Source of the DNA: Akkermansia muciniphila | GTDB lineage: Bacteria > Verrucomicrobiota > Verrucomicrobiia > Verrucomicrobiales > Akkermansiaceae | NCBI GenBank assembly: GCA_945874895.1 | Contig: CAMCIC010000002.1 | Coordinates: 62,001-126,000 of the forward strand | Reading direction: 5' to 3' | Length of the DNA stretch: 64,000 nt | Part shown: positions 6,196-8,300 of the stretch, piece by piece | How the letters are laid out: each line of letters starts with the position of its first letter | How positions within the stretch are numbered: the first letter of the stretch is position 1 | Notes under the pieces: model-generated | Told to the model about the DNA's origin: nothing | Seen by the model: the letters and a program-made list of their open reading frames with translations, nothing else | Databases searched by the model: none | Position numbers and translations under genes: made by a program

Positions 6196-6420
6196 TCAAG
6201 CAGCGATTTCGTAAAACTCGGCGATCTTTTTGAAAATCCTATCGCGTCTTTCGCGGGCCTTTTCCAAATCCTTTGTTTTCAGAGAAAAACGCATTCTCTC
6301 CGAGGTCGCATCCGATTTGTGAATCGTCACGTGACACCACCAGATGCCGCGGTTGTTCCAAAGATGATGATTGGCGTTATCATCGTTGATTTTCATGACG
6401 ATTTTCGAGGTTTTCTTCAT
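6196..6420 (-). CDS. Small protein, tandem paralogue 1 (integrase arm-domain-like)
   Basis: This 74-residue protein is 42 of 58 residues identical (my alignment) to the product at 6508-6738 on the same strand. The shared core is NNRG(I/V)WWCH(V/L)TIH, then RMRFSLKT, then EKAR, then RRDRIF. The pattern of a short WW-containing beta hairpin followed by SLKT.D.EKAR..RD resembles the N-terminal arm-DNA-binding segment of tyrosine recombinases, but no catalytic domain follows. Function is unknown; DNA binding is an inference. An 8-bp inverted repeat (GATCTGTA/TACAGATC) lies in the gap between the two genes. Confidence 0.6.
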   Translation of the reverse strand: MKKTSKIVMKINDDNANHHLWNNRGIWWCHVTIHKSDATSERMRFSLKTKDLEKARERRDRIFKKIAEFYEIAA

Positions 6421-6507
6421 GCATGAAAATTTTTGCGTGATCTGTATGACATCTGCAACAAAAAAAAACAGAAATTGGTACAGATCTGCTAATCAGTACA
6501 GAATCGA

Positions 6508-6738
6508 TCAAGCGGCGCAATGGGGTGTTTCGCCCAACTGCTGGAAGATGCGATCACGACGAGTGCGTGCTTTTTCGATGTCGCGAGTTTTGAGTGAAAA
6601 GCGCATACGCTTGGCCGTGCCATCGGATTGGTGAATCGTCAGATGGCACCACCAGACACCGCGATTGTTCCACAAATGATGGTTTTCATTGGCGTCATTC
6701 ACGCGCAGCGACAACTTGGTGACGGTATTTGTGCTCAT
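6508..6738 (-). CDS. Small protein, tandem paralogue 2 (integrase arm-domain-like)
   Basis: This 76-residue protein is the upstream copy of the tandem pair; see 6196-6420. It differs mostly by conservative changes (I/V, L/I, K/R), which points to selection on both copies rather than decay. The C-terminal end (QQLGETPHCAA) diverges, though the last Ala-Ala and the DNA just around the stop are similar in both copies, so the duplicated unit includes 3' flanking sequence. No transposase, integrase or att-like repeat is adjacent. A cytoplasmic DNA-binding or decoy role is possible but not shown. Confidence 0.6.
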   Translation of the reverse strand: MSTNTVTKLSLRVNDANENHHLWNNRGVWWCHLTIHQSDGTAKRMRFSLKTRDIEKARTRRDRIFQQLGETPHCAA

Positions 6739-6791
6739 AGGGTTTACACGTCCACACTACTCTCGCTCCCTATTTTCGTCCATGTGACTAC

Positions 6792-6816
6792 GCGCAAAAA
6801 AAATGTGTTTTTGCGC
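6792..6816. repeat. Perfect inverted repeat, possible operator or terminator
   Basis: GCGCAAAAA and TTTTTGCGC are separated by 7 bases. It lies 14 bases past the stop of the PLP-enzyme gene and 53 bases upstream of the start of the 76-residue microprotein. The T run is inside the stem, unlike a standard intrinsic terminator, so an operator for the microprotein pair is equally possible. Confidence 0.35.
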
Positions 6817-6830
6817 AAATCCAACAATCC

Positions 6831-8300
6831 TTACAATGCATCGAGAGCATCGCGAAAGGCATCACAGATGACCTGCGCGCCCTCGCTGCCGACACTTACA
6901 CGGAGTAGATGGCTAGGCACACCGCAACCTTCAGCCCACGGCAGTTCACGGTAGTGAGCCAACAACGTGTAGGGACAAACCAGTGTGAACGGAGTGCCGA
7001 ACGATGGTCCCTTGCTAAATTTGATGGAGTCGTATAATTTAGCGGTTTTTTTCGGAGACTTCAGTGCAAAAGACAATAATCCGCCGTAACCTCCATCGGG
7101 TTTGCGCAAGGCATCGTATTCCGTGCGGCAAGTGACGGATGGATGCCACACTTTATCGACGGCGGGATGCGATTGGAGCAATCCCACCAAGGCCAGTGCG
7201 CTTTCATTGGCCGCATGCCACAATGGTTCGCTGTGACGCAGATTGGATAGCAATGCCAAGCTGTCACCCGCATACAAGGGAGCGCATTCGCTGACTTCAC
7301 CAGCAAGAGATACGGAGAAGTCCGCGCTGAAGGGGCTATCCTCACGCACACATGCCATACCAGCCATCACATCACCCGCACCAGAGATCCATTTCGTGAG
7401 ACTAGTCGTTACGACATCGGCATAACGAAGCACTTCGACATTGCCGGGACAAGCGGTGGAGTCATCGATGATGAGAGGCGTGCCGCTCAATCGACAGGCC
7501 TCAGCGATGACAGGAAGATTCACCGTACGCAGCAAGGGGTTGCTGGGAACCTCCAGAAACACCCCGGCAAATTCACCTTGGCGCACGCGATGCAAGGCTT
7601 CGTCGAGCGACTCGCCTTCTCCCTGATTCAAAAAAACCACGCCGTTGCCGAACATCTCTTGGACTTTCAAGCAGTCCACGTAGGGAAATTCGATCTGTAG
7701 TGTTTTTTTCCCCATGCGTAAGCCGGGCAAACTTCGCAGCACGGAGGTGCAGGCTGCCATACCGCTGGCGAACACAAAAATCTGGTCTTTGCCGACCCCG
7801 ACGATCTTGCCAATTTTCGCACGGAGAATTTTCGAGCGACCGGAAGGCGCGGGATTACCGTCGAGGATGTCCATGGCTTGTCGGCTACTGACCACTTCTC
7901 CGGAGAAACGCCAGTAATCGATAGCGACCTGCGCCGCTTTTTCCGGAACGATGAGCGCCTGCAAACCGTGAAAACTAGCGACTCGCGTGGCCACCTCCGC
8001 GCGGCGCTCAACAAAGCGTTGGGCCCGCTGGGCTGACACTCTTGAAGGAAAAAGCATCACCGATTGACCATCGCCGGCCAGTTCTTTTTTTGCCACCTCA
8101 AACAAACGTTCCACAGCGGGATGACGGAAAAACCTTGGATATCCCGCGCGCATTTTACGGACAACGCGATCGCGACCTTCCTCGTAATCCAGCACGGCTT
8201 TCCAGTTCGGCAGACACACCGAGACGGCGTGGAGGGAATCGGGAATTGCAATGCCAAGATCCTCTTCACTCCACGCTGGGTTTTCTTTCAGGTCGCGCAT
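6831..8300 (-). CDS. Cys/Met-metabolism PLP-dependent enzyme (cystathionine gamma-synthase-like)
   Basis: This is a 489-residue cytoplasmic enzyme. The C-terminal ~340 residues carry the family fold: FASGMAACTSVL (about 178-188, cofactor phosphate binding), IIDDSTACPGN (cofactor ring Asp near 280) and TTSLTKWISGAGD with the Schiff-base Lys at 303. The sequence resembles fungal-type cystathionine gamma-synthases, which also carry an extra N-terminal domain; here about 140 residues precede the PLP core. The likely role is transsulfuration toward cystathionine/methionine, but gamma-lyase or O-acylhomoserine sulfhydrylase activity cannot be excluded. It follows the MpaB-type gene by 51 bases on the same strand. 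Confidence 0.8.
   Translation of the reverse strand: MRDLKENPAWSEEDLGIAIPDSLHAVSVCLPNWKAVLDYEEGRDRVVRKMRAGYPRFFRHPAVERLFEVAKKELAGDGQSVMLFPSRVSAQRAQRFVERRAEVATRVASFHGLQALIVPEKAAQVAIDYWRFSGEVVSSRQAMDILDGNPAPSGRSKILRAKIGKIVGVGKDQIFVFASGMAACTSVLRSLPGLRMGKKTLQIEFPYVDCLKVQEMFGNGVVFLNQGEGESLDEALHRVRQGEFAGVFLEVPSNPLLRTVNLPVIAEACRLSGTPLIIDDSTACPGNVEVLRYADVVTTSLTKWISGAGDVMAGMACVREDSPFSADFSVSLAGEVSECAPLYAGDSLALLSNLRHSEPLWHAANESALALVGLLQSHPAVDKVWHPSVTCRTEYDALRKPDGGYGGLLSFALKSPKKTAKLYDSIKFSKGPSFGTPFTLVCPYTLLAHYRELPWAEGCGVPSHLLRVSVGSEGAQVICDAFRDALDAL

Follow-up and report, generated by a model that had tools for sequence, protein, structure and literature searches.

A stand-alone protein family of Verrucomicrobiota resembling integrase arm domains, and its possible role as a relay for a SAM-sensing RNA

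Two small genes lying side by side on the same strand of the 64,000-nt stretch of DNA analysed here (the window; contig C2, positions 62001-126000, of a 2.9-Mb draft genome) raise the question of what proteins resembling the arm-binding N-terminus of a tyrosine recombinase might do on their own. A preliminary description of this DNA had reported products of 76 and 74 residues agreeing at 42 of 58 positions, and the open reading frames and the protein alignment match that account, with 42/58 core identities falling in residues 8-65 of the 76-aa protein and 62% identity overall (Table 1). The same tandem pair is kept in congeners, with orthologs of each copy. Comparison of each copy with its closest congener orthologs gave dN of 0.03-0.04 versus dS of 1.3-2.4 or saturated, and between copy 1 and copy 2 dN was 0.21 with dS saturated. 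As congeners carry orthologs of each copy in the same tandem arrangement and the family is widely spread, the pair is not due to chance; it is real, coding and under strong purifying selection, the last having already been suspected from the pattern of substitutions between the copies. The microprotein gene is thus duplicated in the window's genus, and a search of the window genome for a third copy found none.

Table 1 Features of the microprotein locus, with positions counted from the first letter of the window
Feature	Position	Strand	Basis
Copy 2, paralog of copy 1, 74 aa, pI 9.9	6196..6420	-	Open reading frame, alignment, AlphaFold model
TATGACA (gene strand TGTCATA), upstream of copy 2	6445..6451	+	Heptamer conserved upstream of the gene phylum-wide
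Copy-2 upstream tandem repeat, unit TCTGTACC	6477..6484	-	18-bp direct repeat
Copy-2 upstream tandem repeat, unit TCTGTACT	6495..6502	-	18-bp direct repeat
Copy 1, stand-alone arm-like protein, 76 aa, pI 10.4	6508..6738	-	Open reading frame, family and orthologs, dN/dS
Copy-1 upstream tandem repeat, unit TTTGCGCGTAGTCACA (gene strand)	6783..6798	-	21-bp direct repeat with the 6804..6819 unit
Copy-1 upstream tandem repeat, second unit TTTGCGCAAAAACACA (gene strand)	6804..6819	-	21-bp direct repeat
Cys/Met-metabolism PLP enzyme, cystathionine gamma-synthase-like (CGS), long N-terminal extension	6831..8300	-	PF01053, E 6.8e-36

The two proteins belong to a phylum-wide single-domain family across Verrucomicrobiota, Akkermansia included. 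Further verrucomicrobial copies, which the preliminary description had proposed looking for, were found by protein search in 32 of 57 relatives and by family profile (A2) in 67 of 289 Verrucomicrobiota genomes, with a homolog in every Akkermansia-like genome listed in the latter search. Named records with a homolog include Akkermansia muciniphila, A. glycaniphila, Luteolibacter, Haloferula, Roseibacillus and Rubritalea. Members measure roughly 68-105 aa with the start codons chosen here, and all close homologs are stand-alone, with no fusion to a tyrosine recombinase catalytic domain; residues invariant across the family include HH..N.G.W, an R, SLxT, an A and R-D. The gene is chromosomal, in single or few copies per genome; searches of phage and plasmid collections returned no homolog, and one IMG/VR contig carries a relative. 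Some genomes hold three to five paralogs (G140, G224, G232, G235), and in G232 three of them each come with a separate copy of the heptamer TATGACA. The function proposed below is supplied for a family of which no description was found in a search of the literature for this gene.

Likeness to an integrase arm domain, which the preliminary description had proposed, is supported by sequence profiles at scores below the Pfam cut-off. The sole Pfam match is DUF6538 (PF20172), at E 4e-4 for the window proteins and at E <= 0.01 for 24 of 28 members (best 2e-5), all Pfam scores being lower than the gathering cut-off. Across genomes, the only matches of the family profile in long open reading frames (357-459 aa) were weak ones at the N-termini of tyrosine recombinases, and three of these recombinases, when scanned, contained Phage_integrase together with a weak DUF6538 or Arm-DNA-bind_2 match. 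Common to the microprotein and the tyrosine recombinase arm domains (DUF6538, PF20172; Arm-DNA-bind_2, PF12167) are an H-L-x-x-x-x-G-x-W/Y-W/Y hairpin and an R-x-x-SLxT-x-x-x-x-A-R-x-x-x-D strand-helix; unlike those domains, the microprotein is not followed by a recombinase and occupies a conserved, regulatory-style chromosomal locus. An hhalign comparison with integrase N-domains gave 98% probability over 45-47 columns, an agreement that is supportive rather than independent since the N-domains had been picked by the family profile itself. AlphaFold predicts a beta-beta-beta-alpha arrangement with a core pLDDT of about 90 (mean pLDDT 79 for the copy 2 model, of the same topology), but Foldseek searches of the predicted structure against PDB and BFVD gave no match with a significant E-value, so that the fold search did not add confirmation; two viral integrases stood among the top viral matches, with TM scores of 0.47-0.51. 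Arm-domain identity is therefore supported at the level of sequence, and the fold is a prediction. We lean towards a family that either descends from the N-terminal arm DNA-binding domain of tyrosine recombinases or has a common ancestor with it, a modest preference that is held jointly for the whole explanation offered here.

For relatives beyond the main Akkermansiaceae clade, the usual arrangement is a lone microprotein gene preceded by a SAM-I/IV riboswitch (Rfam RF01725), a class whose variants have been mentioned mainly from metagenomes (PMC2864571). Among the 57 relatives, 11 of 13 RF01725 matches lie on the same strand 100-450 nt upstream of the gene, and in 36 further genomes all 17 matches are placed likewise; in the pooled sets, 28 of 30 directly precede the microprotein gene, a minority of these 28 scoring over the Rfam cut-off and the rest more weakly. 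There are two exceptions. At one (L076; G038:C301), a SAM-I/IV riboswitch and terminator precede a MoxR-like AAA ATPase gene with no microprotein there, and the other (L073; G002:C322:141-246) gave the top-scoring RF01725 match, at 62 bits, on a short contig with phage-like open reading frames that may be foreign to the host genome. A custom Verrucomicrobiota-specific covariance model, R1, built from 24 of these leaders, scores up to 91 bits on leaders and adds 12 cases among loci lacking an Rfam match, the last few of them weak. As a rule the aptamer is the single SAM-I/IV riboswitch of its genome, and nearly all of those found in Verrucomicrobiota precede the microprotein. A search of 19 of these genomes for SAM-I riboswitches (RF00162) found none, so the methionine genes there are without a riboswitch of that class of their own.

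Compensatory changes occur at 12 of 17 helix pairs of the aptamers (P2/P3 covariation), and a SAM-IV-type pseudoknot between the P3 loop and the 3' tail forms 6.15 pairs compared with 5.30 when partners are swapped, above all 300 swaps. A strong intrinsic terminator is present in 19 of 24 leaders, its loop commonly repeating CCTGATGC, which is complementary to the 5' strand of P1 (P1-complementary stretch, 8.8 vs 6.2 nt). Such an anatomy is, as predicted from the RNA sequence, that of an OFF switch acting through termination. No SAM riboswitch was recognisable with Rfam or R1 upstream of the window pair or in the main Akkermansiaceae clade, and a hidden one was not found in Akkermansia leaders with Rfam, R1 or RNAalifold on the aligned leaders. 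The link to a SAM riboswitch is missing from the preliminary description because the feature is not visible within the window.

Upstream of promoter and aptamer lies a second conserved element, the heptamer TATGACA (consensus TTTATGACACA). Of 46 distinct upstream regions 34 carry it, where flanking sequence predicts 0.032 per region and 1.5 in total, a tally drawn from related loci of common ancestry rather than from a set of independent events. In riboswitch loci it mostly sits 47-49 or 56-58 nt before the aptamer, two positions about one helical turn apart; it is present too at loci without a detected riboswitch, and in reversed orientation upstream of most copy-2 genes in the window's genus. 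TATGACA is thus a candidate autoregulatory site that the microprotein may bind. A methionine regulon was also sought through sites of this type and was not found. TTATGACAMA occurs 31 times in 8 genomes versus 8 times for a reversed control, with some sites at the microprotein gene and two no more than about 30 nt away from Cys/Met PLP-enzyme genes. Exact TATGACA-type sites are rare, most of them fall in coding DNA, and there are none at Akkermansiaceae CGS promoters. With sites mostly coding and only two near Cys/Met genes, control of a methionine regulon through TATGACA was not supported by this search.

In the window itself, the preliminary description had proposed two inverted repeats, GATCTGTA (6439) with TACAGATC (6479) and GCGCAAAAA (6792) with TTTTTGCGC (6808), as candidate operators. 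Both are present at those positions, but their symmetry is not kept among congeners, and inverted-repeat operators were dropped as candidates; what congeners keep instead are two tandem direct repeats, one with a period of 18 bp and one of 21 bp. The 21-bp repeat is found in 6 of 6 congener copy-1 loci and the 18-bp repeat in 7 of 10 congener copy-2-type loci, and at <=1 mismatch the copy-2 repeat has a single occurrence in the window genome. Elsewhere, two congeners (L298, G006; L301, G001) have a copy-1-type repeat (TGCGCAAAAACACA...GTGCGC) ahead of a tryptophan-halogenase-like gene, and a similar site precedes a prepilin-like gene at L300 and L299, so targets need not be methionine genes.

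The CGS-like gene lies on the same strand as copy 1, 92 nt upstream, and is the only PF01053 match in the window genome. Among the 12-kb loci examined, CGS adjoins the microprotein gene in 14, and it does so in about 28 named loci, an adjacency kept in several genera and many Akkermansiaceae loci. Akkermansia differs, its microprotein gene lying downstream of rpmB rather than of CGS. There and in near relatives, a nearly invariant TTTTTTGAACG followed after about 15-16 nt by GTGTCT is found upstream of the homolog (L097, L100, L105, L109, L112, L118 and about 17 other loci). We take this element to resemble an ECF-sigma promoter (GAAC ... GTCT), which suggests that the gene receives a different input in Akkermansia.

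Two independent clues support a link of the family to sulfur-amino-acid or SAM supply: most lineages have the riboswitch, and in Akkermansiaceae the gene neighbours CGS. Our best explanation, held with somewhat more confidence than doubt, is that the microprotein is a DNA-binding mini-regulator, gated by SAM and probably controlling its own gene, that acts on sulfur-amino-acid or SAM physiology, in which binding of SAM, binding of DNA, autoregulation and targets are all put forward as predictions. When SAM is plentiful, the P1 helix of the aptamer would form, the terminator would follow and no protein would be made; once SAM runs short, P1's 5' strand would pair with the terminator loop and the protein would be produced. 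The protein would then bind DNA, adjusting transcription of its own gene via TATGACA and that of genes related to sulfur amino acids or SAM. No such RNA gate is recognisable in Akkermansiaceae. There the gene follows the CGS gene directly in the window's genus as well as in several others, and in the window's genus the duplicated gene carries tandem-repeat operator candidates in place of the RNA gate. The regulon is the weakest step of this scheme. Stated in its most general form, that these are phylum-wide mini transcription factors from an integrase arm domain serving as a protein relay for a SAM-sensing RNA, with one SAM-I/IV riboswitch per ~75-residue protein controlling its own promoter and a SAM/methionine regulon, the proposal is tentative and in our judgement falls slightly short of an even chance.

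The preliminary description had left open whether a free-standing arm domain would be a DNA-binding regulator or a modulator of recombination. The reading favoured here is a putative DNA-binding regulator. Arm-domain similarity itself, and an integrase gene near one distant copy (L061), would fit a role in modulating recombination or the remnant of an integrase from a mobile element, but homologs are stable and chromosomal in single or few copies, keep their stand-alone length phylum-wide, evolve under strong purifying selection behind a conserved regulatory leader, and have no match in phage or plasmid records. We regard this reading as very improbable, and a recombinase relic or phage gene was rejected given the lack of homologs in phage and plasmid records together with the purifying selection.

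The main rival is an RNA-binding protein, acting for example in post-transcriptional control of met mRNAs or of its own leader instead of as a transcription factor. A small, basic beta-beta-beta-alpha protein with conserved aromatics, encoded behind a regulatory RNA and with no DNA regulon found, would suit such a role; its sole detectable relatives, however, are DNA-binding arm domains of recombinases, and TATGACA precedes the promoter, beyond the transcribed region, and persists even where no riboswitch was detected. We consider RNA binding unlikely. About equally unlikely, in our estimate, is that the protein controls genes outside sulfur metabolism (e.g. those for stress or the envelope), the SAM level serving as a general nutrient signal and the CGS adjacency being incidental: the copy-1 repeat before halogenase-like and prepilin-like genes in two congeners and the rpmB context in Akkermansia speak for it, and the retention of CGS adjacency in several genera and the ligand class of the riboswitch, SAM, speak against it.

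If the proposal is true, the family would represent a SAM-sensing RNA feeding a protein relay and a bacterial case in which a regulator arose from an integrase DNA-binding domain. It would also offer the phylum to which Akkermansia belongs a candidate regulator of methionine/SAM. Riboswitches usually act in cis on metabolic genes, and SAM-I/IV riboswitches are normally expected ahead of metabolic or transport genes. The leaders described here share with RF01725 the aptamer core, P2/P3 covariation, the SAM-IV-type pseudoknot and a downstream terminator, but precede a lone putative DNA-binding microprotein. In Proteobacteria, methionine/SAM genes are likewise regulated by proteins or RNA, namely the methionine regulators MetJ, MetR and SahR and SAM riboswitches (PMC4239095). 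Unlike in those systems, here the RNA sensor would act via a protein relay. The folds of MetJ, MetR and SahR also differ from that predicted for the microprotein. For the arm-type domain, we read the family as a riboswitch-controlled regulator built from it, a reading that has a eukaryotic precedent in the ALOG-domain regulators of plants, in which a tyrosine-recombinase DNA-binding domain was turned into a stand-alone transcription regulator (PMC3537659). ALOG proteins differ in being eukaryotic, in deriving from another recombinase domain and in having no riboswitch, and the comparison is one of precedent, with no homology to the microprotein claimed.
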